Of a DNA stretch of 64,000 nucleotides, positions 2,638-18,770 are shown in pieces. The DNA lies in contig JAEEYQ010000066.1 in NCBI GenBank assembly GCA_016288215.1, forward strand, positions 1 to 64,000, given 5' to 3'. The stretch's first letter is position 1. The number at the start of each line of letters is the position of its first letter. Origin of the DNA: Lentisphaeria bacterium (GTDB taxonomy: Bacteria; Verrucomicrobiota; Lentisphaeria; Oligosphaerales; Oligosphaeraceae). Below the pieces are notes generated by a model, which ran no database searches, had not been told where the DNA came from, and saw nothing but the letters and a program-made list of their open reading frames with translations. Made by a program: the position numbers and the translations under genes.

Positions 2638-2694
2638 GTAAGTCCTTTGTTTTGAGTTACTTATGAAAAAACGAGAAAAATACGGCTAAAAAGT

Positions 2695-4323
2695 TTAATC
2701 GTTGAAATAGCTGTTAGGGCGCAGGGTTTTGTTGCCGTCGAAAATGAGGGCACCCTTCACGGTGTTGCCGCGGAAGCGGAGTTTGTTCGTCACCAGTTCC
2801 GGTTCCGTGAAGGTGACAAGATGGTTGATGGCGACCTTCCGGCTATTGTCGTGGCGGGCGACTTCTCGCCATTGGCCGTTCACCCACGCCTCCACCACCA
2901 CGTCGTAGGGCTCGGCTCCCGTGTAGCGTTCCATGCCGATGGCGGGCAGGTCGGCCAGGCGGGTGGGCTGCGGCAACATCAGCACCAACGTCACATAGGT
3001 GCCGCCGACGAAGCGGACGCCAGTCCCCCGCTCCGTGGCCTCGACCATTCCCTGCCCTTTGGCGGCGGTCCAGGTTCCGATGGCGGTCTTCAATGTGGTG
3101 AAGGGCCCAGGCTGGAGGTCGTCATAGTAGCCTTTGGACATGACAAGAAGCTCTTTCGGCCCTGGCTCGAAGATGTAGCTTGCAGGCACATTGACGATGC
3201 GAAGCGTCGTGATCCCTTCGCTGGCCAGGTAGGCGAAATAGGCCAGCAGCACGGTTCCCTCCTCTCTGGACCAGTCCCCCACGGCATGGATGGCCGTGTA
3301 ACAGAAGCCGCTGGCCAGATTGCCCTCCAGGGCCTTGTGGTTAAGCCAGGTCTTGCCGTTGTCATTGGAGATGGCGGTGCTCAGCGGCGTGCGGCGGCCG
3401 TCCCGCAGGGAAGCGGGCAGGGCGTCATAGTCGTTCCACACCGCCAGCAGCTGGCCGGAGGGTAGCCGTTTGATGGAGGCGGGAGAACAGGGACTACGGA
3501 GCGGCGACAGCTTCAGGTTCGTCCATGTGTCGCCGCCATCTTCGGAGGTGCAGAAATACTGTCCCAACTCCGAACGGACGAACAGCAAAATGCGCTCATC
3601 TGTAAGTTCCACAACGCCAGGCTCTTGCGCTGTCACCCGCTTGCCATTGGCGTCATAGGCCTTGAAGAGGGCCTCTGACATGCGCCACGTCTTGCCGTTG
3701 TCGTCGGAGAGGGCGCAGGTGACTTGGGCCTTCCAGTCGAAGTCCTTTTCGGGCTCCGACTTGAGGGTGTGGCGGGCCAGCGGCACGATGAGGCGGCCTT
3801 TGTGGGGGCCGCGCTCCAGCTGGATGACGCGGTCGTTGTTCAGCACATAGTAGCCCACGGGCTCCGTGACGCACAGCGTGGCGTCGCTCCAGGTTTTTCC
3901 TTCATCGTTGGAGGTGCGCATGACGGGACGGCAGTCGAGCTCGCTGTTCTTCATGGCATAGAACATGGCGAGGCGGCCGTTCTGCAGCCGCAGCAATGAA
4001 ACGGACATGACGTTCATGCCGGCATTGTTCTTCACGACGATGCGGTCCTCCGTCGTCCACGTCTCTCCGTTGTCGGAGGAATAGCGGGCGGCCAGATCGG
4101 CGTCGCCGTGGTCCCCTCCATCGTCCTTTCCGTTGAAGTGGCTGTAGATAAAAAGGATGCGGCCATCCTTCAGCGTGATGAAGGCGCCCTCCGAATTGCG
4201 GGGGTTGTTCGGCCCTTGCTTCAAGTCCAGACTGACGCGGGGCACCGCGTCCGCCGCCGTGGTGGCCGTCGCGAGAAGCAGGCTGAATGTGGAACAGAGA
4301 ATAAATGAGAGTGAACTTTTCAT
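2695..4323 (-). CDS. Exported sialidase-type (BNR/Asp-box) propeller, paralog 2
   Basis: 542 aa. Signal peptide ends before ADAVPRV, the same mature N-terminus as its two neighbours. Asp boxes SSDNGETW, SNDEGKTW, SDDNGKTW, SEDGGDTW and SNDNGKTW mark the propeller; the C-terminal about 140 residues repeat the neighbour's accessory domain. No Shine-Dalgarno sequence is visible before the ATG: the upstream DNA is a short C-rich stretch followed directly by a heptamer array (4338-4422). Translation may therefore be weak or coupled differently from paralogs 1 and 3, which have good AAGGA-type sites. It likely acts in the periplasm or outside the cell on the same class of glycan. The FRIP motif is again absent. 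Confidence 0.85.
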   Translation of the reverse strand: MKSSLSFILCSTFSLLLATATTAADAVPRVSLDLKQGPNNPRNSEGAFITLKDGRILFIYSHFNGKDDGGDHGDADLAARYSSDNGETWTTEDRIVVKNNAGMNVMSVSLLRLQNGRLAMFYAMKNSELDCRPVMRTSNDEGKTWSDATLCVTEPVGYYVLNNDRVIQLERGPHKGRLIVPLARHTLKSEPEKDFDWKAQVTCALSDDNGKTWRMSEALFKAYDANGKRVTAQEPGVVELTDERILLFVRSELGQYFCTSEDGGDTWTNLKLSPLRSPCSPASIKRLPSGQLLAVWNDYDALPASLRDGRRTPLSTAISNDNGKTWLNHKALEGNLASGFCYTAIHAVGDWSREEGTVLLAYFAYLASEGITTLRIVNVPASYIFEPGPKELLVMSKGYYDDLQPGPFTTLKTAIGTWTAAKGQGMVEATERGTGVRFVGGTYVTLVLMLPQPTRLADLPAIGMERYTGAEPYDVVVEAWVNGQWREVARHDNSRKVAINHLVTFTEPELVTNKLRFRGNTVKGALIFDGNKTLRPNSYFND

Positions 4324-4337
4324 GTGTCAGGTGAGGG

Positions 4338-4453
4338 GGAATTAGGAATTAGAAATTAGGAATTAGAAATTAGGAATTAGAAATTAGGAATTAGAAATTG
4401 GGAATTGGGAATTGGGAGTTGGGTTTTCTTCTAGAGCTTCTAGGGCTAGCTAG
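4338..4453. repeat. Heptamer array plus CTAG-rich tail (locus 1)
   Basis: Positions 4338-4422 are tandem 7-mers of the type (G/A)AATTAG that drift to GAATTGG towards the right. They are followed by GGGTTTTCTTCTAGAGCTTC and further CTAG motifs to 4453. The array abuts the start region of sialidase paralog 2, and the tail contains the stop codon (4450-4452) of paralog 3. The same composite recurs near 40.9, 52.8 and 60.8 kb. Confidence 0.85.
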
Positions 4454-6087
4454 TCCTTGAAGCAGCTGTTGAAGACGACTTTCTGCTTGCCGTCGCAGAC
4501 GATGGTGCCGCCGGCGGAGGTGCAGCGGACGCGCAGCTTGTCCGTCGTCAGCTCGGGTTGGGTCCAGACGATGGGAACGGGGGAGCCGGGGCGGACGCCG
4601 TCACCGTGCTCGCAGACTTTGACCCACTGGCCGTCCTTCATCGCCTCCACGATGGCATGGTAGGATGGTGCTCCTGTAAATCGTTCCAGCGCAAGAGGTT
4701 GCAAATTCTTTAGAGGAATGGGCTGCGGCAACGCCAGCTCCATGGTCACGTCGGAACCGCCCTGAAGGCGAAGCCCTTTGCCGCGGGTGTAGGCGAGAAC
4801 TTCCGCCGCGCCGTTGGTGACGGTCCAGGTCCCCGGCGCCGCCTGAATGGTGGTGAAGGGGCCGTTGGGCAGACTGTCGTAGAAGCCAGGCGTGATGTAG
4901 TAGGGCTCCTTCGGACCGTCCGCATAGAGATAGGAGATGGGCAGTTTGGCGATGCGGGTGTGGCAGAGCCAGTCCATGGCGCAGTAGCTCAGCAGGACGG
5001 CATCCTCCATGACATGGATGCCGATGTAGCAGTACCATCCGTTCAGGTTGCCCTCCAATATCTTGGCGTTGATCCATGTCTTGCCGTTGTCCCGCGAGAT
5101 GGCGGTGCTCAACGGGACGCGGCGACCGTCCCACGCCTTGCCGGGCACGGCGTCATAGTCGTTCCACACCGCCAGCAGGTCGCCGGTGGGCAGCCGTTTG
5201 ATGGAGGCGGGGGAGCAGGGGCAACGGAGGGGCGACAGCACGGCGGGGGTCCAGGTGTCGCCGCCGTCGTCAGATGTGGAGAAATATTGCCCCTCGTCTG
5301 AACGGCAGAACATAAGTAGCCTTCCATCAGAAAGTTCCACAATTCCCGGCTCTTGCGCCGTGACGCGGTTGCCATTGGCGTCGTGCACCTCGTAGACGGT
5401 CTTGCTCATGCGCCATGTGGCGCCGTTGTCGTCGGAGATGGCGCAGGTGTCCCGTGCCGCCAGATCCCACTTGCTTCCAGGCATTTCCCAAACGTACATG
5501 CCTTCGGGAATGTCCTCTGTCTTGATTTCATCGACCTTGAGGGCGTGGCGGGCCAGCGGCAGGATGATGCGCCCTTTGTAGGGTCCTTGCGTCAGCTGGA
5601 CGGCGCGGTCGTTGTTCAGCACATAATAGCCTTTCGGCTCGGTGACGCAGAAAATGGCCTCGCTCCAGGTCTCCCCTTCGTCATCGGTGAAGCGGAGGAC
5701 GGGATGGCAGTCGAAGTTGCTCTCTTTCAACAAGTAGAACATGGCTAGGCGGCCGTTCTGCAGCCGCAGCAGCGAGACGGACATGACGTTCATGCCACCC
5801 GTGTTCTTCACGATGATGCGGTCTTCCGTCGTCCAGGTCTCTCCTTTGTCGGAGGAATAGCGGGCGGCCAGGTCGGCGGCGGAGTTGTCATCGCCGTCCT
5901 TTCCGTTGAAACGGCTGTAGACGAACAGGATACGACCGTCCTTCAATTCCGCGAAGCTGCCTTCGCTGTTGCGCGGGTTCCCCGGCCCTGGAGGCAACTC
6001 CAGACAACGGCGGGGCACTGCATCGGCCATCACGGCGGCGGCCATCATGAAAAAGGCCATTTCACAGGCGCGAAACCAAACGGACAT
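4450..6087 (-). CDS. Exported sialidase-type (BNR/Asp-box) propeller, paralog 3
   Basis: 545 aa, first gene of the tandem trio. Signal peptide around residues 1-22 (hydrophobic AFFMMAAAVMA) ends before DAVPRR. Asp boxes are SSDKGETW, TDDEGETW, SDDNGATW, SDDGGDTW and SRDNGKTW. Relative to paralogs 1 and 2 it has an insertion of about 20 residues before the third Asp box (around DEIKTEDIPEGMYVWEM), which would sit in a surface loop and could change substrate fit. AAGGAG lies 6 nt before the ATG. The TAG stop is inside the CTAG-rich tail of repeat locus 1. The substrate is presumably a sialylated or otherwise acid-sugar-capped glycan, but the canonical GH33 FRIP motif is not visible. Confidence 0.85.
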   Translation of the reverse strand: MSVWFRACEMAFFMMAAAVMADAVPRRCLELPPGPGNPRNSEGSFAELKDGRILFVYSRFNGKDGDDNSAADLAARYSSDKGETWTTEDRIIVKNTGGMNVMSVSLLRLQNGRLAMFYLLKESNFDCHPVLRFTDDEGETWSEAIFCVTEPKGYYVLNNDRAVQLTQGPYKGRIILPLARHALKVDEIKTEDIPEGMYVWEMPGSKWDLAARDTCAISDDNGATWRMSKTVYEVHDANGNRVTAQEPGIVELSDGRLLMFCRSDEGQYFSTSDDGGDTWTPAVLSPLRCPCSPASIKRLPTGDLLAVWNDYDAVPGKAWDGRRVPLSTAISRDNGKTWINAKILEGNLNGWYCYIGIHVMEDAVLLSYCAMDWLCHTRIAKLPISYLYADGPKEPYYITPGFYDSLPNGPFTTIQAAPGTWTVTNGAAEVLAYTRGKGLRLQGGSDVTMELALPQPIPLKNLQPLALERFTGAPSYHAIVEAMKDGQWVKVCEHGDGVRPGSPVPIVWTQPELTTDKLRVRCTSAGGTIVCDGKQKVVFNSCFKD

Positions 6088-6248: not shown

Positions 6249-7697
6249 TCATGGTGTGAAAAGCTGTTCAAGCTCCACTGCGCATTGCGGAAAAGAATGA
6301 TATTCATTCTGCTTAAGTCCGTTGGCTGTAATGACCGTGAGAAGCAACGATTTCCGTGTGTGGGTCGCTTCACGGAAAATGTCCATCTTGTCCTGCAGCT
6401 CCTGTGCATAGGCTTTGTCAATGGCGAATGGGCCTTTTGCATATTTGATTTCACAGACGTTGATTGTCTCGTCTTTTCTGTCAATGAGAAGGTCAATCTG
6501 CGCTCCCTTTCCGATGTGTTGGGGCGCATGCCATGCACAGACTCTTGTCTGGATGCCTGAAATGCCAAGGGCCAGCTTGATTTGTCGCACATGATGGAGA
6601 CAGAGCATTTCAAAGGCAGGCCCCGCCCATGCATGATGCAAGGGGCTGTTGACGGATGTGCTCCAGAAGTTTTCATCGCCGTAGATGTTGCTTTCGATGA
6701 AATTGAAGTGGAAAAGCGTATAGAAGTCAATGAGCTGATACAGAATGTGCTTTCTGCCGGTGGTGCGGTTTATTCGATTGGTCTCCGAATACGGTTCATA
6801 GTGCCTTATGAAGCCGCATTGCTCAAGTTCTTCCAGCGCAACGCTGAACGCTCCATTGTCAGCATGTTTGGTCTGTTGGATGAGTTCCATGCGGGTCATG
6901 CCCATGCGCTTTCGGGAGAGGGCGGTGACAATGGAAATATGGGCCGACGCCTTTCTGAAAATGGCATGGTAAAGGTTGGAGAATTCGTCCTTGAGTTCGG
7001 CTGTTGGCGAGAAGAACAGACGGTCCACATTTTGAGCAAGGCTCAGATGTTTCTGCATGGCAGATAGATAGAATGGAATGCCGCCAAGAATCATGTAGCA
7101 TTCGGCAATCTCCATCCGTGAATAGCCAAAGCCATGGCTCTTGAAATACTCCTCGCATTCATGAAGGGTGAATGGCTCGAGCAGCATGTGATGGGTCAGG
7201 CGGTTATGTAGACCGCCTCTGCTATGAATGAGATTGTTGAGCATCCACGAAGTTGCTGAACCACAGACGATTAGCTTAACATCATCCCGAAGCGCCGCCC
7301 AACTGTTCCAGAAGTTCTCAAGGGCGGGAATGAAGCCGGATCTGGGCGTGTCCATCCATGGCATTTCATCGATGAAAATCACTTTCGGGCCGTCAGGAAG
7401 GGTTTCAAGATATTGCCCAAGGGCGTTGAAGGCCAAAATCCATGAGGAAAACAACGGCAGCTCCTCTTTTTTTGCATGTCGTTGCAGGGCAATGGAAAAC
7501 GCAATAAGCTGACGCTGCAGGGACGCATCATGGGAACCGGTCATGTAAAATGCGAAATGGTCATGGGCCGCCTCGCGGATGAGGAATGTTTTGCCAACAC
7601 GTCGCCGTCCATATACCGCCACGAATTCGGACCTAGAACTGGTCAGATATTCCCTTAATGTCCGTAACTCATTGTCTCTTCCAATGATAGGTTCCAT
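6249..7697 (-). CDS. AAA ATPase with C-terminal PD-(D/E)XK-like domain (DUF234 type)
   Basis: 482 aa. Walker A is GRRRVGKTF near residue 30 and Walker B is VIFIDEMPW. A winged-helix-like middle region (MTRMELIQQT) and a C-terminal segment QIDLLIDRKDE...CEIKYAKG give the D-E-x-K pattern of PD-(D/E)XK nuclease folds, matching the archaeal/bacterial ATPase plus DUF234 architecture. The role of this family is unknown; DNA or mobile-element functions have been proposed. A GGAGG site lies 8 nt before the ATG and a promoter (7734-7761) about 30 nt further up, directly below a tandem repeat array. Base composition is visibly more AT-rich than the surrounding glycoside-hydrolase genes, and it separates two parts of a catabolic block, which suggests later insertion. 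Confidence 0.85.
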   Translation of the reverse strand: MEPIIGRDNELRTLREYLTSSRSEFVAVYGRRRVGKTFLIREAAHDHFAFYMTGSHDASLQRQLIAFSIALQRHAKKEELPLFSSWILAFNALGQYLETLPDGPKVIFIDEMPWMDTPRSGFIPALENFWNSWAALRDDVKLIVCGSATSWMLNNLIHSRGGLHNRLTHHMLLEPFTLHECEEYFKSHGFGYSRMEIAECYMILGGIPFYLSAMQKHLSLAQNVDRLFFSPTAELKDEFSNLYHAIFRKASAHISIVTALSRKRMGMTRMELIQQTKHADNGAFSVALEELEQCGFIRHYEPYSETNRINRTTGRKHILYQLIDFYTLFHFNFIESNIYGDENFWSTSVNSPLHHAWAGPAFEMLCLHHVRQIKLALGISGIQTRVCAWHAPQHIGKGAQIDLLIDRKDETINVCEIKYAKGPFAIDKAYAQELQDKMDIFREATHTRKSLLLTVITANGLKQNEYHSFPQCAVELEQLFTP

Positions 7698-7733
7698 TCT
7701 ATGTTCCTCCTTCGCAACGTGGAAATGCCATAG

Positions 7734-7761
7734 AATATAACCTCTTCTGTCGTTTCCGCAA
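7734..7761 (-). promoter_or_regulatory. Predicted sigma70-type promoter of the DUF234 ATPase
   Basis: On the minus strand TTGCGG (7756-7761) and TATATT (7734-7739) are separated by 16 nt. The -35 hexamer lies inside the inverted repeat that ends the gene-proximal 51-bp repeat. Only this copy has TTGCGG; the other two have CTGCGG. A protein binding the repeats would therefore overlap the promoter. Confidence 0.45.
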
Positions 7762-7889
7762 GTTTTGTTTTTATAATCAGCGGAAACGTCGAGAAATCTG
7801 CCGATTCCGCAGGTTTTGTTTTTATAATCAGCGGAAACGTTGAAAAATCTGCTGTTTCCGCAGGTTTTGTTTTTATAATCAGCGGAAAC
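7752..7889. repeat. Three tandem 51-bp repeats with inverted-repeat ends
   Basis: A 36-bp unit starting GTTTCCGC and ending GCGGAAAC (inverted repeat), with the core GGTTTTGTTTTTATAATCAG, occurs at 7752-7787, 7803-7838 and 7854-7889. The two 15-nt gaps are near-identical to each other, so the true period is 51 bp. The array lies immediately upstream of the ATPase promoter. Conserved gaps and lack of cas genes argue against CRISPR; it looks like a multi-site operator or a target array. Confidence 0.9.
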
Positions 7890-7950
7890 GGCAGTATAAT
7901 CGACTATAAAGAATTCATAACCTGTTTGCCATCAGCAATTTATAGAACTT

Positions 7951-9213
7951 TTAGCTCATCTGGCGGCGGGCGTCGTCCTCGCAATTCTGCCGAATGCGGT
8001 GCCATGTCTCGCGGGCCTGTTCAGTGGGCTTGATGGGGCCAGTCACGCTGGGGCACGGTTTGTCCGCGCAGGGTCGCGCGGGATCCGGATTCCAGTCGTC
8101 ATGGCGATATTTTTCGCGCATGCCGGGGTCATGGAGGTCCGGAATCTCAAAGGAATTGGCGCAATTGAGCGCGGAGCGATAGCCCTGAATGCCGATCATC
8201 GTCATGTCCACGGCCTTGTAGACGTCAATCAGCGGACGCTCCCCCGTGACGATGGCGCGCTTGAACCAATAGCTGGTGAAGTAGTCGCCGCCGCCATGTC
8301 CATGTTGTTGCGCATCAATATGTTCTGGCGGAAGATTCGGCATGTATTTCATGAAGTACGGATGGACGGGCGGCGTATCGACGAAATCGCCGCCCCAGCG
8401 GCTGACCCGCAGGTTGGAGTCGCCCTGATTCCATTCCATGACACCTTTGGAGCAGCAGATGCGGTAGCGCTGCCCATGGTCGCGTAACCCGCTCCAAGGC
8501 AGGATTTTCGTCACAGCGCCGTTGTTCATCTTGCAGAGCATGACGGACACGTCGTCGTTGACGCGAAGGCTTTCGTTCATTCCCGCGTCATCGGCGCAGC
8601 GCGGGACGACCATGGCGGTCACATATTCGGGGCGGGTGTCCGTAATCAGCATGACCGGCCCCATGGAATGGGTGCAGTAGTAAGTGGCGGGCAACCAGTT
8701 ACGCCAATGGTCCTCGCGGGACGTCAGCTGGTCGATTTCATTTTTGGTCATTGGATGGACGTATTCCCCTTCGCCATAGCGGAACTCGCCCAGATCGCCG
8801 GTGGCGTACAGCCGTCGCATCTCCAGATTCTGCACCATGAAGGGATAGTTCTCCGCAAAGAAATAGACCAGGTTTGGCGCGGCCTCCACGGCCTCCACCA
8901 GCTCCACGGCCTCCGCCATGGTGAAGCACGCCATGCATTCGCTCATGACATGCTTTCCCGCTGCCAGAGCCTGCTTCACCGCCCACACGTGCTCCGTGGC
9001 GTAATTGGCCACCACAACGGCATCGATATCCGAGTCCAACATCTTCGCGTAATCCGTGAAGACCTTGCAATTCAAGCGTTTAGCGGCCAGCTTCCCGCAA
9101 AGTTCGTCGCGGTCGCACACGGCGGCGATCTCCATGCCGTTGGCTCTGGCCCCTTGGGCGAGAGACACCCCGCGCCCTCCGCCCAAAACGCCTATCTTCA
9201 GTTGCTTATCCAT
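7951..9213 (-). CDS. Gfo/Idh/MocA family protein lacking the EKP motif
   Basis: 420 aa. An N-terminal Rossmann fold begins KIGVLGGGRGVSLA. The usual catalytic EKP of Gfo/Idh/MocA dehydrogenases is replaced by SEC in GKHVMSECMACFTM. Downstream segments GEGEYVHP and YCTHSMGPVM resemble the GH109-like branch, in which NAD-dependent enzymes cleave alpha-N-acetylgalactosaminides. AGGAG lies about 7 nt before the ATG. Being next to GH20 and the sialidase-type genes, a role in cleaving or oxidising an N-acetylhexosamine or uronate product is reasonable, but the substrate cannot be read from the sequence. No export signal, so it probably acts in the cytoplasm. Confidence 0.8.
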   Translation of the reverse strand: MDKQLKIGVLGGGRGVSLAQGARANGMEIAAVCDRDELCGKLAAKRLNCKVFTDYAKMLDSDIDAVVVANYATEHVWAVKQALAAGKHVMSECMACFTMAEAVELVEAVEAAPNLVYFFAENYPFMVQNLEMRRLYATGDLGEFRYGEGEYVHPMTKNEIDQLTSREDHWRNWLPATYYCTHSMGPVMLITDTRPEYVTAMVVPRCADDAGMNESLRVNDDVSVMLCKMNNGAVTKILPWSGLRDHGQRYRICCSKGVMEWNQGDSNLRVSRWGGDFVDTPPVHPYFMKYMPNLPPEHIDAQQHGHGGGDYFTSYWFKRAIVTGERPLIDVYKAVDMTMIGIQGYRSALNCANSFEIPDLHDPGMREKYRHDDWNPDPARPCADKPCPSVTGPIKPTEQARETWHRIRQNCEDDARRQMS

Positions 9214-9305
9214 GAGTGAACTCCTGTATCTGTTTTGTTTTTGAAAAAAGTTTTTGGAAGCTCTTTATATATGACACGAACTATAATTGAACAAACTTCC
9301 GACTG

Positions 9306-11300
9306 CTATTTCCCCCAAACGACCGTCATGGCGGAGAGGGTCAGCCCTTGGCGGCCAGGGGGGAACGCAATGGCGTTCAACGGCTTCTCCGGATGCGGAT
9401 TCGTCAGAATGGAGACGCGGCGGAGCGTTCCGTCGGCGGCTTGGACGGTTTCCGCATGGAAGTATTCGCGACGGTCACTGGCGGGGCCCCCATGCCATTC
9501 ATGGTACACGGGTTGCGTATCCTCCGTGCCGTCTGCGTACTTCCATATGATGCTGCACAGCGTCGGATAGGTGAAATTCCGTTCCGTGAAGCTGACCTTG
9601 CCGAAATCCAGCGGAGGGATGTCGAAGATGGCGAGGACCTTGGCGGCCGTCCCATTGATTTTCCATGTATGCGCTCCTGCCTCCATGGACATGGCTTCGG
9701 CGGGGCGGAGGACAATTCCCTCCACGGTGGTGAGGGCCTCCGCCGTATCATCGCCGTAGAGAATCCGCTGATGCTCTTTGGCTATCCTCTTGATGGGGAA
9801 GTCGTTGTCATAGACGCGGCGGATCAGCTCCAGCCGATTGCGGTAGGACTGTCCGTCCTCCGGAAGGGTTCCGTTCCAAGCCAAATCCGCGAAATAGGGG
9901 GTGTTGTTCCATGAATCGACGCTGAACTGCATGGGGTTGCAGCCATTGCTGTAGAACCACAGGGTGTTGAAGAGCGCAGGGACCTTGGCCGCGAGGGCGC
10001 TGCGGAGGCCATTCTCCGCGTTGTGGTCGAAGCACATGACCGCCAGCGACTGGTCGTGGAAGCCGTTCTGATGATAGTAGTCCACGACGGACGGAAAGGC
10101 GTCCGGATTCTTCCCATAGTACCAGTTCATTATTTCTAAATTATTGTGATGCAACCATTTAACCATTGGATAGGTGGCCAGGTCCAGATCCATGCCCAAA
10201 ATCTTCCGCATGGGGATGGAGAGCGGACGGTCGCCCCACATGACGGCCTTCACGCCGTGCTCCTTCAGATGGTCGGCAAGCGCGTTGAGCTGACGGGCGT
10301 ACATCTCCTGAATGTGGAACGGCTGTGGCACGCAGGCGGGGCAGAGGCGGTCGCTTAGATAGATTTCGTCATAGGCGAGATGGAAGCGCTTGGGGTGGAA
10401 GGCCTCCAGCAGCTCGTCAATCATGCCGTACAGAATAGGAAGGAGCTCGTCGTTCTGGCCGGGGCAGAGCATGGAGTTGTCCCACGTAATTTCCTCCGCC
10501 TTGCGTTCACCGCTTTTTTCCCAAAACTTCAGGTGCTCCGGCGTGCGGAGGAACCAGCCGGAATGACCTCCAAGTTGCAGCAGGGGAATGACTTCTAGAC
10601 CTTCTGCTTGGGCGTGTGCCCCCAAGGCGGCCAGTTTCTCCATCGGCCATTGGGTGATGGCGGTCTTAAGCTTCACGCTTTGGTAGGCCGGAAGCGCATC
10701 CAATTGCAGCACAACGACATTGTACTTCAGCTGGCCCAAGACGGAAAGATATTGCTTGGCGCTTTCGAAGGCCCCTTCGCTGTAGTAGGCATCGCAGATC
10801 ATCTGATGCATGCCGCGGACGGCGAAAGCGGGACAGTCGAAAATCTGCATGAAGGGGATTTCGTAGGCGTCGTCTGTCAGTCGCACCAGCTGACGCAGCG
10901 TGCGGATGCCGTTGAGCAGGCCGATGGCATCCGCCCCCTTGAGTTTCACGCCCTCTTTGGAGACCCAAAGGGCATAGCCTTCTGGAGGAATTCCCACAGT
11001 CGATGTGGGATTGACGCCCTGCGTCCATATGCAGGCTCTCACCACGGGGTCGTCCACTTCCATGGGCGTCACGTCCGCGACTTCTCTGAAGAGGTCTGTC
11101 AACGCCTTTACCGCCGTGGAATCCGCCAGTTTCTGCGGACAGAAGAACTGCAGCCTCTGATTCAGCGGCAGTCTCAAAGTGCCGCCCGGATATTGGCAGG
11201 ATCGCGGACGTGGCCACAGAACCGGCTCCGGCAGACGGACGGTGGTGGCGCAGCCAACGGCAAAAATGGCCGCCGCAATCAGCGCAAAAAACGTCTTCAT
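9306..11300 (-). CDS. GH20-type beta-N-acetylhexosaminidase lipoprotein
   Basis: 664 aa from the ATG at 11300, chosen over an upstream in-frame start at 11321 because AGGAGAAGG lies 5 nt before it and the lipoprotein signal (AAAIFAVGC) then starts properly. An N-terminal domain with WPRPRSCQYPGG is typical of the GH20b domain that precedes the GH20 barrel. The catalytic Asp-Glu pair is seen in FHLAYDE (D311-E312), matching the family's HxGGDE site with changed flanking residues. A C-terminal domain of about 170 residues is unassigned. Expected reaction: removal of terminal beta-linked GlcNAc or GalNAc at the cell surface, consistent with mucin-type glycans. The downstream Gfo/Idh/MocA gene is 92 nt away. 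Confidence 0.8.
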   Translation of the reverse strand: MKTFFALIAAAIFAVGCATTVRLPEPVLWPRPRSCQYPGGTLRLPLNQRLQFFCPQKLADSTAVKALTDLFREVADVTPMEVDDPVVRACIWTQGVNPTSTVGIPPEGYALWVSKEGVKLKGADAIGLLNGIRTLRQLVRLTDDAYEIPFMQIFDCPAFAVRGMHQMICDAYYSEGAFESAKQYLSVLGQLKYNVVVLQLDALPAYQSVKLKTAITQWPMEKLAALGAHAQAEGLEVIPLLQLGGHSGWFLRTPEHLKFWEKSGERKAEEITWDNSMLCPGQNDELLPILYGMIDELLEAFHPKRFHLAYDEIYLSDRLCPACVPQPFHIQEMYARQLNALADHLKEHGVKAVMWGDRPLSIPMRKILGMDLDLATYPMVKWLHHNNLEIMNWYYGKNPDAFPSVVDYYHQNGFHDQSLAVMCFDHNAENGLRSALAAKVPALFNTLWFYSNGCNPMQFSVDSWNNTPYFADLAWNGTLPEDGQSYRNRLELIRRVYDNDFPIKRIAKEHQRILYGDDTAEALTTVEGIVLRPAEAMSMEAGAHTWKINGTAAKVLAIFDIPPLDFGKVSFTERNFTYPTLCSIIWKYADGTEDTQPVYHEWHGGPASDRREYFHAETVQAADGTLRRVSILTNPHPEKPLNAIAFPPGRQGLTLSAMTVVWGK

Positions 11301-11323
11301 ATTCCCTTCTCCTAACCTCAAAC

Positions 11324-11367
11324 CTCTAATTCCTAATTTCTAATTCCTAATTTCTAATTTCTAATTA
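11324..11367. repeat. Heptamer array (locus 2), no tail
   Basis: Tandem CTAATTC/CTAATTT 7-mers (minus-strand GAATTAG type). The array overlaps the 3' end of the 11361-12656 gene and provides its TAG stop; it lies just upstream of the ribosome-binding site of the GH20 gene. Confidence 0.8.
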
Positions 11368-12656
11368 CCTCTTTCCTTCTCCCGCTTCGTGAATTCTCCA
11401 AGTGCCTGCCACACCGCCTCTTGCTGCGAATGGACGAGGATAAAGGCCGCCTCATGGATGATGGTGTAGTCATAATCCTCCCGCACCACATCCTTCAGAT
11501 AATCGCGGACGGACTCCACAGGCGGATTCAGCCCGCTGCCGCCGTTTTTGGAAAGGGCATCGTTGAGGAAGAGGCCGATTTCCATCTTGTCCCGAGGGAA
11601 TTTCTGCCGATAAGCCTGAAGGATGGACGGCGTCTCGGGCGTCATCCGAACATTTAGACTGGTGTGGATGCGATTCACAAGTCCTTCTCCTAGAATGACT
11701 TCTGGATCCATCTGGAAGAGGGAGCCAGCTGCGGTGTCTGAATCGATGAAATTGTACAGGCCGGCCTCCAATGTCACGGTGACGTGGGGGAAGCGGCGTT
11801 TCAGCTCCCGCAGGAAGGCCTCCATGCCCTCGCCGGCGATGCGCCGCAGGACGGTGTAGTCGCAGTCAGGGGCGCCTTTGTAGGAGACGGTGCATTGCGG
11901 CAAGTCGCCGAGCCGCTTTTCCTTTGGAAGGGGCGTGACGGTGACGGTCGCCTCCTCTCGCGGGTCGATTTGGGCGCGACGGCCCGTGCGGCGGAAATAC
12001 TCCTCCGCGATGGGATGGTTGAAGCCGTAGACGTCCGCCAGCGCAGTCGCCCCGATGAACGGCGTGCAGTAAAAGCAGTGGAATCGCAACGCGCCCAGGT
12101 AGATGGAACGGAAACCCATCTCCACGAAGTCGGCGACGCGCTGCAGGAAATGCTCCCGCACTTCAGGGTAGTTGAAGCAGGGGACGCCAACCAGCTGGAA
12201 GTTGCCGCAGCGGCTCAGCTGAAAATACTCCGGATGTTCACGGAAGAACAGGTTGCGGCTGTTGGCGGGGTCTTCGTCCAACAGGCGGATATAGGGCATC
12301 AATTCCATATCCCTTTCCTGCGCAAGGGCTAACATCTTGCGGACTGGGTCGTATTCGCGAAGGCGGCGGGCCAGAAGGTCAAGATAGTTTCCCGTGCCGT
12401 CGTGACCGGCGGCGGACTGTCCGTCCACATTGGAGAATTTTGGGAAGCGGGCGGAGTCATAGAAGGCCTCGCCGTGGAAGAAGGCCTGGATGATGGCTCC
12501 GTCGAATCCGGCGGCCTTCATCTGGTCGAAGACGCGCTCCACTTGCTGCTCCGAGCCGTCGCCGGCCCAACAGAAATCGAGGTAGTCGATGTCCATGAAG
12601 GTTTTGCGAGGAGCGGCCTTCGAATTGGGTGCGACGGAAAAGGGTTGAGATTGCAT
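11361..12656 (-). CDS. TIM-barrel protein, putative glycoside-hydrolase-like
   Basis: 431 aa, no clear signal peptide. The first 200 residues (FDQMKAAGFDGAIIQAFFHG, AQERDMELMPYIRLLDED) have the beta-alpha pattern of a TIM barrel similar to the uncharacterised glycosyl-hydrolase-like families found in PVC bacteria. Later acidic motifs (VTLEAGLYNF, MEIGLFLND) could carry catalytic residues but cannot be assigned. The last codons read into repeat locus 2, giving the ending KERGN followed by TAG. It sits between a secreted SGNH hydrolase and the GH20 gene, 21 nt after the former, so probably one transcript. Function unknown; a cytoplasmic or periplasmic glycosidase is the best guess. The first-Met start has only a weak GAGAG. 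Confidence 0.6.
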   Translation of the reverse strand: MQSQPFSVAPNSKAAPRKTFMDIDYLDFCWAGDGSEQQVERVFDQMKAAGFDGAIIQAFFHGEAFYDSARFPKFSNVDGQSAAGHDGTGNYLDLLARRLREYDPVRKMLALAQERDMELMPYIRLLDEDPANSRNLFFREHPEYFQLSRCGNFQLVGVPCFNYPEVREHFLQRVADFVEMGFRSIYLGALRFHCFYCTPFIGATALADVYGFNHPIAEEYFRRTGRRAQIDPREEATVTVTPLPKEKRLGDLPQCTVSYKGAPDCDYTVLRRIAGEGMEAFLRELKRRFPHVTVTLEAGLYNFIDSDTAAGSLFQMDPEVILGEGLVNRIHTSLNVRMTPETPSILQAYRQKFPRDKMEIGLFLNDALSKNGGSGLNPPVESVRDYLKDVVREDYDYTIIHEAAFILVHSQQEAVWQALGEFTKREKERGN

Positions 12657-12677
12657 ATGTCGTTCTCTCTGTTTGAG

Positions 12678-13793
12678 TTAGTCCATGTGAAGCGCTTGCT
12701 TGACCACGGGAAGGATGGTTTGGAACATGCGATAGAAGCCCAAGTCATTGGGATGGCGGCCGTCCACCGTGCAGTAGTTCAGGCCATCCGGACCGAACAT
12801 GATGTCCCCTGGAATGAAATAGACGTTCTTATCTCCTGCGGCGACGGCATTTTCATAGGTCTGGCGGATGATTTCCATGCGTTCGCCACCATGATTGGTA
12901 TGGGGTCTGGAGAGGAAGATGACGGGCAGGTCGGGGTGGGCTTCGCGGATGATCTTGAAGAAGGGCTCATGGGTTTTTCGCAGATGCTCCGGCGTGGGGG
13001 CATTGTTGTCGTAGTCCATGACAAAGACGCTGGCGTCGATTTTGGCGATGGCGCGGGCCATGGCGGGCTCTCCCCTGCCGCTGGCGGAGAAGCCCAAGTT
13101 GACCTGCGGGGCATCCAATGCGCGGCAGATCATGGTGGTGAAGTTATTGGCGGGGCGGGAGGCGCAGCCGCCCTGGGTGATGGAGGAGCCGTAGAAGACG
13201 ATGGGCTTCTGGATGCGCTGCGGCCGTGGCTCCTCGAATTTGGCTTCGGGAGCGACGCCGATCTCCAGGCTGTCCGTGCCTGAATAGAGTGGCAGATAGA
13301 GGATGTAGTCGCTCATGCCGTCGCGAATCCAGCCGCCGGCCATGGCGGTGCCGCCGTCGGGGCGGATGTTGCTCATGAAACGCTCTGTGCCATCGGCGCG
13401 GCGTTCATAGAGGTCATAGCCGGAGACACCGGTGGAGGCCATGTGAAACATGTACTTCATGGTTGGGGCAGAGGCTCTTATGGCGATAAAGGGCGAGTTG
13501 GTGCGGAAGAGCACGGCACCGCCGGTCTGACACCGCGCAAGCCGGAGGGCGCCTTTGTTGACGTCCGCCTCCGTCATGTCCGCCGGAAGGCGGTTCAGCG
13601 GCTGGTCCGGCGAGGTGCAGAAGGGGAAGCCCGTCACAAGAAAGGGAGGTTTCCTCACGTTGCCGAAACGGACGGGACGGCCGTCAAACTCCTCCTGCTT
13701 GAAGTTCGCGTCAATTTCCGTGATGTCCATGGCCTTGACGGCGCAGCAGAACGCCGCCATTAGGATTGCATTAATGAATGCAATATGTTTCAT
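12678..13793 (-). CDS. Secreted SGNH/GDSL hydrolase (carbohydrate esterase-like)
   Basis: 371 aa from the ATG at 13793; AAAGG 7 nt upstream and an immediate signal peptide (FINAILMAAFCCAVKA) favour this over a longer frame starting at 13919. An N-terminal beta-sandwich-like domain of about 150 residues precedes the SGNH domain: GSSITQG holds the nucleophile Ser, SASGRGE and VMDYDNNAP follow as blocks II and III, and VDGRHPND supplies the Asp-His pair. This two-domain form is typical of PVC and Bacteroidetes esterases that remove acyl groups from polysaccharides. It would act outside the cytoplasm, stripping acetyl or similar esters so the neighbouring glycosidases can proceed. Confidence 0.8.
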   Translation of the reverse strand: MKHIAFINAILMAAFCCAVKAMDITEIDANFKQEEFDGRPVRFGNVRKPPFLVTGFPFCTSPDQPLNRLPADMTEADVNKGALRLARCQTGGAVLFRTNSPFIAIRASAPTMKYMFHMASTGVSGYDLYERRADGTERFMSNIRPDGGTAMAGGWIRDGMSDYILYLPLYSGTDSLEIGVAPEAKFEEPRPQRIQKPIVFYGSSITQGGCASRPANNFTTMICRALDAPQVNLGFSASGRGEPAMARAIAKIDASVFVMDYDNNAPTPEHLRKTHEPFFKIIREAHPDLPVIFLSRPHTNHGGERMEIIRQTYENAVAAGDKNVYFIPGDIMFGPDGLNYCTVDGRHPNDLGFYRMFQTILPVVKQALHMD

Positions 13794-13907
13794 TGTCATG
13801 CCTTTCTTTGCAATGGTGTGAAGTAATGATTCAGAAGAAGTCCCCATAATCCACATTAATATATGGCTCAATTCCCTATGTGAGAAGGAAAGGGACAGCT
13901 TTTTATC

Positions 13908-14042
13908 CACAGAATACACGGAATAACCAGATGCGAACTGCCAATGGGCAATTCACGGTTCTTTAAGCCATTTGAAAAGAGCAATCGCGTTCTGCCGCGG
14001 AACGTGGCTGAACGCTTCTGGTTATTCAGAGTGTTCTGTGGC
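13908..14042. repeat. Intergenic inverted-repeat element, copy 1 (about 135 bp)
   Basis: The left end CCACAGAATACACGGAATAA and the reverse complement of the right end (CCACAGAACACTCTGAATAA) agree at most positions and continue through CCAGAxGCG, giving imperfect terminal inverted repeats of about 29 bp. A related element lies at 33947-34041, sharing the 19-bp CCACAGAATACACGGAATA and the ATGCGAAC and GAAAAGA segments. It fills the gap between the SGNH gene and the stop of the 14044-16398 gene. Confidence 0.75.
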
Positions 14043-14043
14043 T

Positions 14044-16398
14044 TTATTGAAGATTGTCGATGGGGCGGATGACGTAGTCAAGAGGGGCGAGCTCCAGCTG
14101 CTGTCCGTCGGCGGCGGTGAAGCGAACGGGCTCTTTGGCGGTGTTGAGATAGATGGCGTACAGCTTGCCGTCCACGATACGTCCCTCCGCCTCAACGACA
14201 TCGGGCAGCGGCGAGGGGATGGATGCCTGCTGGCCCCGCCAGATGGGGTATTCGGTGACGAAGGCGCCCAAAATCTGCGGCGCCTTGGCCCGCAGTTCAG
14301 CGGAGAGGGGCAGCTGTGCGAAGGTGCCCAACGCCACCGCGCCCTTGAGCAGTGCGGCGGCGCCCATGAACTTGAATTCCGCCGCTGTGGGTTCCCGTCC
14401 ATAGAAATAGGCATGGCCGGTCTGCTGGAAATAGACGAAAGCCGTATCTCCATACTGCGTATAGGCTTCCACCATGGGGAGGAACTCGCGGATGTCGTAG
14501 TCGGGGATGGGATAGTGGTCGAAGCCGAGCATGTCCTGCTTCAGTGGACGGTTGATTTTGAAATTGCAGGTGTAGTTGATCCAGATGGGATGTTCCGTGT
14601 CGATGGCCTTGAGCAGCTCGTAGCCCTTCTGCGTGAATTCAATGCCGTTCCAGCCGTCGCTCGGTTCGTCGCAGACCAGCCATCCGGCCAGCGCGGGATG
14701 GCTCTTGAGATTTTTGACGACTCCCGCCATGTAGTCGTAATGGGAGGGATTGGCGTCGTGGTAGAGGAAGTTGCAGATGCCCTTGAGGCCCGCCTGGCCA
14801 AGGCGGTCAAGTGCCTCTTTGACGCCGTTTTCGCCCCATGCGGGCGGGTTGAGGAAGATGACGGCGTTGTAGCCCATGGCCTTGATCTGCGCCAGCACCT
14901 CCGGCTTGAAGGCGGTGGGATCCGGCTCGCACATCACGGCGATCAGCAGCTCCTTCGGCTGATAGGCCGTTTCCTTTAAAACTCTTGCGTAGGAGCAGTT
15001 TGCGCTTTTCGCAGCCACAATTTTACCCTGCTCTTTCACGGTGATGCGGCAGCCGGGGAAGTCCTCCGGAGCCTCCATGACGACTTTCGCCGTCTCGCCC
15101 GCCTTAAGGGTCAATTCCACCTCCTCCAGTTCGGTCCATGGTCCATTGGCGCTGCAGGTGGCGCGGGCCACGGTGAAGGTGCGGGCGATTTTGGCTAAGT
15201 TGCTGAGGGGGAAGGCGATGGAAGGCGTCGGCAGCTCGAATTCCGGATGGGGCTTGCCGATGCGCAGGGCGGCGGCGTTGGCGGCGTCCACGGGCAGGTT
15301 GCGAAGTCGGCTCCAGCGGTCCTGCTGCCCGAAGACGAAGAACGGCCACCGCGTGTCGGTGCTGACGCCCAGCTCGTTCTCAATGCAGTTCTCCCGTCCT
15401 GCCAGCCACTTCCAGTCTTTCAGAAGGGGCCTTTTGCCTCCGTCGTTGAAGGTGGCGAAGGGGAGGAACACGTCCGCCGTCCAGCTCTTGCCCGGCTCGA
15501 AGGTCGTCTTTGCTTCCCAAACGCCGTCCCAGAAGGTGTTTGCGCTGCGCAGATCCTGCACGTTGCCGTCTTCTGCGATGATGAATTGGCAGAGTGCGTC
15601 GCCGTCGCCTTGCGGGAAGAAGAAGAGCTGAATGTTGTCTGTGCCGGCCCACAGGTCGTTGTCCCGTCCATTGCTCTTTTTGGGAGCGAGTCGGGTGGCG
15701 GGGATGGCGTTGACGATGTGGAAGCGGAGGCCTTCGTCGTCGGCGGTCAGCGTGATGTCCGTGGGATGAGGCATGGCGGTGCCGTCCGGCTGAGTGAGGC
15801 GGAATTGGCGCGTGCCGCCGCCGTCGAAGTCGATGTCGCCGTTGACAGGAGCGGACTCCCGTGTGCGGAAGGGCGTGGCCTCCGTCCCTTCCTCCAATTG
15901 GGGCGAGTTGATGAAGATTCTGCCCCGCGCGAAGAACTGGATGGTGCCTGAATTGGCATCGTTGTCAATGGTGAAGCGATAGCGCTCCCATGACGCCGTC
16001 GGCGTGAAGGTGCGCTCCGCATTGCCGCCGATGTTCAGGACGATGACCACGGAACTATCTGGCTTGTCGGTCTTTAGATACACACTGAAGGTCTTTTTCC
16101 CTTTTGGGGCGCCGTTGATGCAGCTGAAGAAGGGAAGCGGATATTCGCCGCAGGCTTCGCTGTCCAGCAGGAAGCTGGCGACGCCGTCACGGGTGGCTTC
16201 GGGAGCCATGCGCCATCCCTTTTGGTATCCTTCGAAATTCTGGTACCAGAAGCCCCAATGGCTGGTGCCCCACCCCGTGGGGATGCCAGAAGGGGGCACG
16301 TCGGAGAAGTCCGCGTTCTTCAGATAGTTGAAGGGTTCGCCGCAAAGGGCGGAAATCAGGCCGCCCGCGATAGCAAGAATAGTTATAAGTCGTTTCAT
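14044..16398 (-). CDS. Large secreted multi-domain glycoside-hydrolase-like protein
   Basis: 784 aa with a signal peptide (residues 1-19, LAIAGGLISALCG). Residues about 20-190 resemble a CBM4/9-type beta-sandwich (NADFSD...GWGTSHWGF, SCINGAPKGKKTFSVYLKT). Residues about 200-400 resemble a CBM9/DOMON-like module (DNIQLFFFPQGDGD, WTADVFLPF). The C-terminal 320 residues are a TIM barrel with GWLVCDEPSDGWNG, whose Glu is a candidate acid/base. The enzyme class cannot be named; GH2- or GH5-like action on a polysaccharide is plausible. AAGG is 7 nt before the ATG. It lies 17 nt after the SGNH lipoprotein gene, suggesting an operon of esterase plus hydrolase. Confidence 0.7.
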   Translation of the reverse strand: MKRLITILAIAGGLISALCGEPFNYLKNADFSDVPPSGIPTGWGTSHWGFWYQNFEGYQKGWRMAPEATRDGVASFLLDSEACGEYPLPFFSCINGAPKGKKTFSVYLKTDKPDSSVVIVLNIGGNAERTFTPTASWERYRFTIDNDANSGTIQFFARGRIFINSPQLEEGTEATPFRTRESAPVNGDIDFDGGGTRQFRLTQPDGTAMPHPTDITLTADDEGLRFHIVNAIPATRLAPKKSNGRDNDLWAGTDNIQLFFFPQGDGDALCQFIIAEDGNVQDLRSANTFWDGVWEAKTTFEPGKSWTADVFLPFATFNDGGKRPLLKDWKWLAGRENCIENELGVSTDTRWPFFVFGQQDRWSRLRNLPVDAANAAALRIGKPHPEFELPTPSIAFPLSNLAKIARTFTVARATCSANGPWTELEEVELTLKAGETAKVVMEAPEDFPGCRITVKEQGKIVAAKSANCSYARVLKETAYQPKELLIAVMCEPDPTAFKPEVLAQIKAMGYNAVIFLNPPAWGENGVKEALDRLGQAGLKGICNFLYHDANPSHYDYMAGVVKNLKSHPALAGWLVCDEPSDGWNGIEFTQKGYELLKAIDTEHPIWINYTCNFKINRPLKQDMLGFDHYPIPDYDIREFLPMVEAYTQYGDTAFVYFQQTGHAYFYGREPTAAEFKFMGAAALLKGAVALGTFAQLPLSAELRAKAPQILGAFVTEYPIWRGQQASIPSPLPDVVEAEGRIVDGKLYAIYLNTAKEPVRFTAADGQQLELAPLDYVIRPIDNLQ

Positions 16399-16415
16399 GG
16401 CAATGCCTTATATTT

Positions 16416-17114
16416 TTACTTGTTGGTGTTTTGCGGAAGCGCCTTCCAAATGGCGTCCGCGATGGCTTTCATGCCGCGGTCTCCCGGATGGATGGCGACG
16501 CCGTCATGCTGAAAACTGCGTTCGGAGCGCGCATAGTTCTCCTCTTTGGCAAGAGCGCGTATGTCCACATAGATTCCGCCGATGGCCTCACAGGCTTTCC
16601 GGAGCGGTTCGTCAATGGATTCACGAGGCCAGAAGGTGCTGCGGACGATGATATTCGGGCAGCCCGCCTCTTTGATGAACGTCAGGAATTCCGTGACCTT
16701 CTTTTGGAAAAGTTCCTGCATTTCAGGAGTTTCCGGATCGGGAACGTTTTCACCGATGGCGAGGATGAAGAGATCCGGCTTCATGTCCATGCATTTTTTC
16801 AAGCTGTCCAGAGATGCGATGTCGATAGTGGGGTACTCACGCTCGAAGGAGGCCACATTGCTGAAAAAGGCCTCAGGTGCGGTGCCGCCGTTGGCTTCCG
16901 TGAAATAGCGCAGGAGCAAGTGGCAGAAGTCCTTGTCCTGTGAGCTGGCGGCCATCCCCCAGTTTGCCACCCAGCCGATGTTGGGTGATGGATCAGAGTG
17001 GGTGATGCTGTTGCCAAGGACGGCGAAACGTTCGCATCGATGGGGCCGCAGGGTGCTGCAACTCATGGAAACCCAGGCAAGGCCAATGGTCAGGATGATG
17101 GAGTAAATTTTCAT
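16416..17114 (-). CDS. SGNH/GDSL hydrolase lipoprotein
   Basis: 232 aa. A lipoprotein-type signal ends in SMSC (Cys19). The SGNH blocks are readable: VLGNSITH (Ser nucleophile), a GW segment in NIGWVANWG, LAIGENVPD (block III Asn), and HDGVAIHPGDRG with the catalytic Asp-His. It is therefore a compact single-domain esterase anchored at the membrane, unlike the two-domain enzyme encoded at 12678-13793. Probable role: deacylation of glycans before or alongside the large hydrolase directly downstream. The ribosome-binding site is weak (AGAAG). Confidence 0.75.
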   Translation of the reverse strand: MKIYSIILTIGLAWVSMSCSTLRPHRCERFAVLGNSITHSDPSPNIGWVANWGMAASSQDKDFCHLLLRYFTEANGGTAPEAFFSNVASFEREYPTIDIASLDSLKKCMDMKPDLFILAIGENVPDPETPEMQELFQKKVTEFLTFIKEAGCPNIIVRSTFWPRESIDEPLRKACEAIGGIYVDIRALAKEENYARSERSFQHDGVAIHPGDRGMKAIADAIWKALPQNTNK

Positions 17115-17183
17115 GGCGATTTCTTCTATTTGTTGATTATAAGTATGTTATGAGAAAACACAAAGATGCAAAAGGGATGGTGA

Positions 17184-18464
17184 TCAGCATGTCAAGCAGC
17201 CGATTGGAACAATCAGCACGCCGTCACGGCGGCGATAGGCATAATTTCCCATGCCGGTAAGGACCATTTTGAAGGCGGGGCTTTTCATGCGCGTGGTGTC
17301 GATTCTGTCCTCCAGTTTCTTGAGCACGGTGGCCCCTTCCTCAATCCGCTTCTCGCCGCCGAGCTTGATTTCGACCAGCCCGTAGCTGCCATTGCGCAGA
17401 TGAATGACGGCGTCGCACTCCAGGCCGAGGGCATCGCGGTAATGATAGACCTGGCCTTTGATGGCCTCCGCATAAACCCGCAGATCCCGGACGCAAAGGG
17501 TCTCGAACAGCAGCCCAAAGGTGTTGAGGTCGTTCAGAAGGTCCTTTGGCCCAAGCCCCAAAACGGCGGCGGCGATGGACGGATCGGCAAAATACCGCGT
17601 GTCGGACGTCCGGATGGCCGTCTTCAAGCGCAGATTGGGATTCCATGCCTCCATGTCCTCTATGACGAAGATCTTCTTCAAGGCGGTGACATAGGAATAG
17701 AGGGTGTCTTCATCCATGGAGGCATTGTCGTTGGCGATGATGTCCGCCCGGATAGCCGCGTTTGTGGCCTGCGCCCCCTGATGTCTGGCATATGCCTTCA
17801 TCAGGCGGCTGGTTCGTCCGGGGTCTCTGGAGACGCCATCGACTCGGCTGATGTCTGAATGGATTACCGTATCGCAATAGTCGAAGGCCTGGTTCAAGGC
17901 GATGGATTCCCGCATGTCAATCGCCTTTGGCCAGCCGCCGCGGCAGACAAGAAACGCCAGCTGCTCAATGGTCATGTCGTTTGCCGCCGTGATCTCCTGT
18001 TGGCCGTTGAACAGTTCGGACAGCGACACGCCGCCATTGGACTCACCAGACTCAAACAGACTCATGGGCCGCATCTTCAGCCTGGAAAATCTGCCGGTGC
18101 CCGAATGGCGGATGTCCTTGGTCACTGGCGGCACGGCGGAGCCGGTCAGGATGAATTGACCCAATTCGTCCCGATGATCGACCTCAAATCGGACGGCATC
18201 CCACAATTTCGGCGCAAGCTGCCATTCGTCAATCAGCCGCGGAGCTTTGCCGGAAAGCAGCGTCTTGGGATGAAGCTCCGCCATTTCCAGATACTGCGCC
18301 GCCTGGTCGGGGTCTGACATGTACACGATGCTGTTGGCGAACTGCTCCGCCGAAGTCGTCTTACCGCACCACTTGGCGCCTTCGATGAGTACGGCACCCG
18401 CTCCTTCCAGTTTTTCGGCAAGAAGCACATCGGAAACTCGTTTCCTGTATTTTTTCATATTCAT
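17184..18464 (-). CDS. AAA ATPase with DUF4143-type C-terminal domain
   Basis: 426 aa. Walker A EGAKWCGKTT near residue 27, Walker B PRLIDEWQ, and sensor-like FILTGSAVPP are the hallmarks of the DUF4143 ATPase family. The C-terminal region has LECDAVIHLRNGSYGLVEIK, the D-E-x-K pattern of the PD-(D/E)XK fold. Family function is unknown. A GGAGGG site precedes the ATG; the promoter (18503-18530) is just upstream and an array of about ten 23-bp direct repeats begins 11 nt above its -35 box. It separates glycan genes from the priA operon and stands alone as a transcription unit. The arrangement mirrors the DUF234 ATPase at 6249-7697 although the two proteins belong to different families. Confidence 0.85.
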   Translation of the reverse strand: MNMKKYRKRVSDVLLAEKLEGAGAVLIEGAKWCGKTTSAEQFANSIVYMSDPDQAAQYLEMAELHPKTLLSGKAPRLIDEWQLAPKLWDAVRFEVDHRDELGQFILTGSAVPPVTKDIRHSGTGRFSRLKMRPMSLFESGESNGGVSLSELFNGQQEITAANDMTIEQLAFLVCRGGWPKAIDMRESIALNQAFDYCDTVIHSDISRVDGVSRDPGRTSRLMKAYARHQGAQATNAAIRADIIANDNASMDEDTLYSYVTALKKIFVIEDMEAWNPNLRLKTAIRTSDTRYFADPSIAAAVLGLGPKDLLNDLNTFGLLFETLCVRDLRVYAEAIKGQVYHYRDALGLECDAVIHLRNGSYGLVEIKLGGEKRIEEGATVLKKLEDRIDTTRMKSPAFKMVLTGMGNYAYRRRDGVLIVPIGCLTC

Positions 18465-18502
18465 AATGGATCCCTCCGAACATCTAAATTTGACATGTTC
18501 CT

Positions 18503-18530
18503 ACTATACCCCAAAAAAGGCGTTCTTCAA
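18503..18530 (-). promoter_or_regulatory. Predicted sigma70-type promoter of the DUF4143 ATPase
   Basis: On the minus strand TTGAAG (18525-18530) and TATAGT (18503-18508) are 16 nt apart, the same spacing as the other promoters proposed in this window. The leader to the ATG is about 32 nt and contains GGAGGG. The repeat array starts at 18541, immediately upstream. Confidence 0.5.
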
Positions 18531-18540
18531 GCTCAATTCG

Positions 18541-18770
18541 GTAGTTTGTGGAAATTTCGTTCGGTAGTTTGTGGAGATTTCGTTCGGTGATTTATGGAGA
18601 TTTCGTTCGGTAGTTTGTGGAGATTTCGTTCGGTGATTTATGGAGATTTCGTTCGGTGATTTGTGGAGATTTCGTTCGGTGATTTGTATGGATTTCGTTC
18701 GGTGGTTTGTGGGGATTTCGTTCGGTAGTTTGTGGAGATTTCGTTCGGTGGTTTGTGGAAAATCCACTGC
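18541..18770. repeat. Array of about ten 23-bp direct repeats
   Basis: Nine full units of the type GT(A/G)(G/A)TTTGTGGAGATTTCG plus TTCG follow one another exactly every 23 bp (18541-18747), with a degenerate tenth unit to 18770. Units differ at three or four positions only. The array fills the gap between the priA stop and the DUF4143 ATPase promoter. Because 23 is not a multiple of 3, all minus-strand frames cycle through the same peptide pattern and stay open for long distances; these are not considered genes. Confidence 0.95.

Follow-up and report, generated by a model that had tools for sequence, protein, structure and literature searches.

Private promoter repeats beside two candidate-defence ATPase genes of a Lentisphaeria bacterium

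Direct repeats of about 20 bp that are read by the adjacent protein and serve in its autoregulation are familiar from iteron-regulated plasmid initiators. The ORC/Cdc6 initiators recognise origin sites through a winged helix, and 2qby is a DNA complex of this kind. Among phage defence systems, CapW and BrxR are reported to be DNA-binding regulators that restrain the cyclic oligonucleotide-based anti-phage signalling system (CBASS) and bacteriophage exclusion (BREX), respectively, at the promoter (PMC9122588, PMC9122601, PMC9122589). PDC-S01 and PDC-S27, both among the most frequent candidates of this sort in bacteria, are PADLOC single-gene phage defence candidates in which an ATPase is fused to a PD-(D/E)XK domain; PDC-S01 is reported as the fourth most common prokaryotic defence entry, with 39,480 detected systems, 9,986 archaeal and 29,494 bacterial (PMC12988326). 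We analysed one gene of each kind within a 64,000-nucleotide stretch of a Lentisphaeria bacterium (assembly GCA_016288215.1, contig JAEEYQ010000066.1, positions 1 to 64,000; hereafter, the window). Both lie on the minus strand behind a tandem array and a promoter-like sequence. This confirms the array-promoter-ATPase layout first proposed from a sequence-only reading, with a weak promoter match on the DUF234 side. We consider it probable, at roughly 0.7, that the winged helix of each ATPase binds these private repeats and autoregulates the gene's own promoter, most likely repressing a candidate nuclease effector. The features concerned are as follows.

6249..7697, minus strand: ATPase_2/DUF234-type AAA ATPase, winged helix and PD-(D/E)XK protein, 482 aa, PDC-S27 (PADLOC profile E=5e-194)
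6444..6548, minus strand: PD-(D/E)XK core of the DUF234-type protein (GAQIDLLI...NVCEIK), in which the catalytic residues D402, E416 and K418 do not vary among 26 homologues
7734..7761, minus strand: promoter-like TTGCGG-16-TATATT of the DUF234-type gene, its -35 inside the last repeat copy; a weak match made by eye and absent from the promoter scan list
7746..7890, minus strand: array of 51 bp x 2.8, 5' of the DUF234-type gene, with an interrupted dyad (GTTTCCGCTG N16 CTGCGGAAAC) in every unit
17184..18464, minus strand: AAA_14, winged helix and DUF4143/PD-(D/E)XK protein, 426 aa, PDC-S01 (PADLOC profile E=1e-63)
17355..17456, minus strand: PD-(D/E)XK core of the DUF4143 protein, in which D351, E365 and K367 do not vary among 50 homologues
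17673..17762, minus strand: helices 235-246 and 252-264 in the winged helix of the DUF4143 protein, of which 252-264 is the putative recognition helix and has a start that covaries with the repeat
18503..18530, minus strand: promoter-like TTGAAG-16-TATAGT of the DUF4143 gene, immediately past the 23-bp array, from the promoter scan; the array-promoter phase is kept in relatives
18537..18759, minus strand: array of 23 bp x 9.7, unit CCACAAACYACCGAACGAAATCT, 5' of the DUF4143 gene

Domain searches returned an ATPase_2 match for the first protein, with DUF234 below threshold, and AAA_14 plus DUF4143 for the second. High-confidence structure models, with a predicted local distance difference test score (pLDDT) of 92 for the DUF4143 and 91 for the DUF234-type protein, and sequence motifs place AAA, winged-helix and PD-(D/E)XK parts in both. 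The nearest solved fold of either model is PDB 2qen, and ORC/Cdc6 and STAND proteins appear lower in the lists. When solved structures were searched by sequence, the DUF234 protein found 2qen and 2fna, while the DUF4143 protein had no good match. Walker and nuclease motifs are intact, and the catalytic residues are invariant among homologues in both families. The two genes had been called unrelated. They do belong to different families, but because their three parts and their nearest fold are common, the models make these families of a single architecture.

The likeness to CapW and BrxR would lie in repression of a defence gene at its promoter. There, however, a separate WYL-domain regulator is used, whereas here the putative nuclease effector bears the winged helix itself; the units are single genes, and the domain search found no WYL domain in either window protein. 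The archaeal PF01637 ATPases (2qen, 2fna) and ORC/Cdc6 share the AAA and winged-helix fold, but the window sites lie at the gene's own promoter, a nuclease domain follows and nothing resembling an origin was seen. Iteron initiators resemble these loci in having direct repeats of about 20 bp next to a protein gene; they differ in that the present units are mostly chromosomal, show no replicon features, and encode a protein that has a nuclease domain but lacks a Rep domain. A CRISPR array was considered and rejected, the units running head-to-tail without unique spacers. The literature searched, which preprints and many subscription papers lay outside, held no account of promoter repeats, protein-repeat covariation or autoregulation for PDC-S01 or PDC-S27, and the text of PMC12988326 does not mention tandem repeats. 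Private promoter repeats of candidate-defence ATPases thus appear to be new to the literature.

Array enrichment and period

The genome holds 17 DUF4143 and 11 ATPase_2 matches, one gene being in both sets. We counted an upstream array when it was not a simple-sequence repeat (SSR) and had a period of at least 18 and a score of at least 80; the genome background was a 464-kb sample in which 307 genes were examined. Such arrays precede 12 of 26 tested ATPases and 3 of 305 other genes (Fisher p=1.3e-12), a strongly positive outcome for the check proposed with the sequence-only reading, namely enrichment of upstream repeats with a private repeat per gene. Five of the 307 sampled genes have an array; two of these are the window ATPases, two have orphan arrays like those of the ATPases in kind, and the fifth is SSR-like. 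Lag analysis of 242 neighbouring genes gave no peak.

Relatives of the window DUF4143 protein were taken as the best 80 of 586, a set biased to close relatives, plus seven viral contigs, giving 87 loci. The 80 come from Firmicutes, Bacteroidota, Spirochaetes, Fibrobacter, Proteobacteria, Actinobacteria and others. Tandem Repeats Finder reported a period of 23 or 46 in 67 of the 87. A threshold-free lag analysis over 90 loci of this 23-bp family gave a mean lag-23 identity of 0.76 against a background of 0.37; for the other families it peaked at 32/33 (a second DUF4143 subfamily, type-1) and at 51 (DUF234). In 48 held-out loci, drawn from 388 genomes of the phylum, the best lag was 23 in 43, 46 in three and 22 in two. 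Plasmid homologues with only 30-31% identity to the window DUF4143 protein (Lentilactobacillus, Prosthecochloris) keep the period of 23; in the plasmid homologue of greatest divergence among those examined (Aminobacter), lag 23 gives just a weak maximum (0.50), and the haloarchaeal plasmid homologues examined have no clear array. The family motif is GCCAAaYnnCsgAAYrAAAATTn, with at least two copies in 84 of 90 loci. Copies agree with one another inside a locus (74%) more than consensuses agree between loci (56%).

The array period is therefore set by the protein subfamily: DUF4143 has 23 bp or 32-33 bp, and DUF234 has a long dyad that is frequently amplified at 51 bp. That the window arrays differ in sequence and period, as noted earlier, holds in this refined form. 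Type-1 proteins match the PDC-S01 profile at E=1e-166 to 1e-180, compared with 1e-63 for the window protein, and since the best-scoring DUF4143 relatives (L061-L090) are mostly without arrays, arrays belong to subfamilies. Paralogue repeats within one genome are no more different than chance (0.55 within vs 0.51 between at specificity positions, no repulsion), so selection for orthogonality is unsupported.

In the DUF234 family, a long interrupted dyad lies 5' of the gene. Across 34 DUF234 genes its median score is 12.9, compared with 7.3 in a control set of 60 other genes (p=7e-13). DUF234 genes that lack an array often bear one large dyad, e.g. GATAGTGGTGCCAAAA…TTTTGGCACCACTATC in Segatella and TTTTGGCGGAATAT…ATATTCCGCCAAAA in Butyrivibrio; the DUF234 element is thus primarily a dyad, of which the 51-bp array is an amplified form. 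Symmetry is weaker in type-1 DUF4143 units, and dyad enrichment in their upstream regions was not significant (p=0.14).

Covariation and promoter geometry

In the 23-bp family, to which both the covariation and the promoter phasing belong, mutual information between repeat positions 7-14 and protein columns is concentrated at residues 232-260 (p=1e-6 for the discovery loci and 9e-4 for the held-out ones). No enrichment of this kind appears for repeat positions 1-5; for positions 16-23 it is absent from the discovery loci and weaker than that of 7-14 among the held-out ones (p=0.03). The pair of residue 253 and repeat position 12 tops the ranking of the held-out loci as well as that of the combined set: D253 goes with G in 53 of 59 cases, N253 with C in 9 of 13 and P253 with A in 7 of 7. 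In the AlphaFold model (mean pLDDT 92), the covarying residues form the start of helix 252-264, the second helix of a winged helix-turn-helix.

Relatedness was controlled in 59 independent sister pairs, using columns picked after the first covariation analysis. The partial correlation is 0.57, and equally variable random columns gave 0.06±0.14, with none of 3000 reaching 0.57; the tail positions of the repeat gave −0.11. A blind scan of 409 protein windows placed all of its best eight at starts of 243-250. The 20 held-out sister pairs by themselves, a noisy subset, ranked window 224 first and 249-250 second and third. Together with the model, the covariation points to a site-specifying DNA-binding domain within the protein, and suggests that the DUF4143 protein of the 23-bp family reads its repeat through the winged helix.

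Nearly all relatives of the 23-bp family have the promoter between the array and the gene, and arrays are phase-locked to it in three taxonomic groups (Rayleigh p 4e-5 to 3e-12, values that related loci inflate). In 22 of 35 loci of a Firmicutes-type set, the -35 hexamer starts 19 nt past repeat position 1. Among Spirochaetes, Fibrobacter and others, GCCA of the repeat forms a TTGCCA -35, putting the last copy in the promoter spacer, and Bacteroidota have -33/-7 boxes with a narrow phase to the repeat. Some Lachnospiraceae carry repeat copies between -35 and -10, and further on. This geometry is consistent with regulation at a site in the promoter of the gene itself, and the copies in the spacer favour repression. 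The 16-nt promoter spacing shared by the two window genes, noted earlier, is not meaningful; relatives mostly have 17.

Probable autoregulation and its alternatives

Each gene may thus be seen as a self-contained unit, with private binding sites and a promoter for a single AAA-ATPase/winged-helix/PD-(D/E)XK protein, whose winged helix would bind the repeats, be they 23-bp direct repeats, 32-33-bp repeats or the interrupted dyads of DUF234 that are often amplified at 51 bp. Cooperative binding beside or over the -35 region would make the gene autoregulated and most likely repressed, and such repression could hold a nuclease effector, itself a defence candidate, at a safe level until some trigger displaces the protein. 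Several points weigh against this. The case for binding and regulation is computational, the promoters are assigned by consensus, and shared descent adds to the conservation of phase. The covariation speaks for the 23-bp family only. Some DUF4143 (PDC-S01) clades are array-free, and the highest-scoring clade gave no peak in the lag analysis. The array of most loci is situated 5' of the -35, a position as compatible with activation as with repression, and three to ten copies are more than a simple operator requires. The antiviral function of PDC-S01 and PDC-S27 has candidate status only (PMC12988326).

Alternatively, the array might be chiefly a scaffold or sensor, on which an oligomer of the AAA/STAND-like ATPase would hold the nuclease inactive or poised until phage interference frees it, control of transcription being secondary. 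Multiple sites in fixed register, folds near ORC/Cdc6 and STAND immune proteins, the intact Walker and nuclease motifs and the PDC status are in keeping with this. However, strict phasing to the core promoter, with copies that form the -35 or sit in the spacer, points to transcription, and a single dyad is often enough for DUF234 genes; we regard the scaffold as rather unlikely. It is less likely by far that array and ATPase make up a mobile or selfish element whose ends or insertion target are the repeats. Near-identical units with unrelated flanks do occur: in Fibrobacter, L111 and L128 align at 93.5% identity over a stretch that opens 86 nt ahead of the start and closes shortly after the stop, and they are unrelated beyond it, so that the edge of the array and the stop codon bound the homology. 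The pairs L167/L170 and L143/L145 show the same boundaries, some other close pairs have longer flanks in common, and relatives among the best 80 of 586 are 60-68% identical across phyla. The unit is also present on plasmids and in viral contigs. But no repeat copy lies 3' of the gene (13.0 matched bases of 23 vs 12.8 in the control), neither terminal inverted repeats nor an integrase was seen in the unit, and ordinary horizontal transfer with selection on the unit would look alike. Terminal repeats or repeat copies on both sides, as at mobile-element ends, were not found except at L007, which has an array on both sides. What had been proposed as a recurrent, selected unit of array plus ATPase is therefore supported, being common to distant genomes with unrelated flanks; the suggestion of an autonomous mobile element finds little favour.

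An array immediately 5' of a gene with nuclease motifs also recalls type III toxin-antitoxin systems, in which a repeat array stands beside a single protein gene, and the array might be transcribed to a repeat RNA that restrains the protein. We find this very improbable. Such systems have a promoter upstream of the array and a terminator before the toxin gene; here the promoter lies past the array, which would thus not be co-transcribed with the gene, no terminator is present between array and gene in the DUF4143 unit, an Rfam search gave no match and the covariation partner is the winged helix. The window does hold many heptamer arrays elsewhere, as a repeat-rich genome would, but the notion that the ATPase arrays are background tandem repeats is refuted by the scarcity of arrays at other genes and by an identical exact period across many phyla.

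Returning to autoregulation by the protein's own winged helix, a tentative extension, which we hold to be possible and not likely, is that PDC-S01 and PDC-S27 are immune receptors on a private array that acts as operator, titration sink and tripwire, with disturbance by invaders releasing both expression and the nuclease. If so, one of the most widespread candidate defence families would rely on an effector that represses itself, and its protein-DNA code would be rewritable. Self/non-self recognition and copy-number control, both suggested earlier, found no direct evidence in our analysis. Phage targets or decoys were considered and rejected, the exact window repeat and a strict generic two-copy pattern both being absent from 2.9 million viral contigs.

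For PDC-S01, the array offers a first testable handle in the form of a defined DNA ligand, with a predicted contact between residue 253 and repeat position 12. The unit boundary would be useful for cloning an active unit, and constructs without the upstream array may misbehave. The matched protein-site pairs constitute a natural set for studies of how DNA specificity evolves.

Other arrays and neighbouring genes

The 23-bp array of the window has one other occurrence in the genome, a diverged orphan array (L049 5383-5469; G000:C68:95380-95471) that closely resembles it and has no DUF4143 gene behind it. It may mark the place of a lost gene or act as a decoy; a decayed gene was looked for behind it and none was found. 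A PDC-S27-like gene lies about 600 bp past it. Also on C68, an orphan 33-bp array (AAACACCCTTGGATTTCGTCCAATAAATGGCGC; L047 9791-9909) stands beside a SNF2-type helicase gene and has no ATPase. At L007 (673-792 and 2315-2426; G000:C28), a type-1 DUF4143 gene is flanked on both sides by the same 33-bp array, the sole case seen. Two divergent DUF4143 genes, L002 and L010 (G000:C53:55940-58650), share a single 33-bp array, which probably belongs to the type-1 gene L010. At L026 (585-1395; G000:C62), some 800 bp of 15- and 39-bp TGCGTTGCACAAGAA-type repeats lie 5' of a diverged PDC-S27-like gene and extend into its open reading frame.

Within the window, intergenic heptamer arrays of GGAATTA/CCTAATT type are dispersed at 4338-4417, 11325-11366, 22953-23016, 34545-34581, 40925-40967, 52739-52814 and 60714-60745, and CTCTAGAAG 9-mers accompany them at 40883-40909 and 60772-60808. 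The heptamer arrays are simple-sequence and have no link to the ATPases. Beside the DUF234 unit, at 1063-6087, are three neighbouring paralogous genes that, judged by translation, are sialidase/neuraminidase-like.

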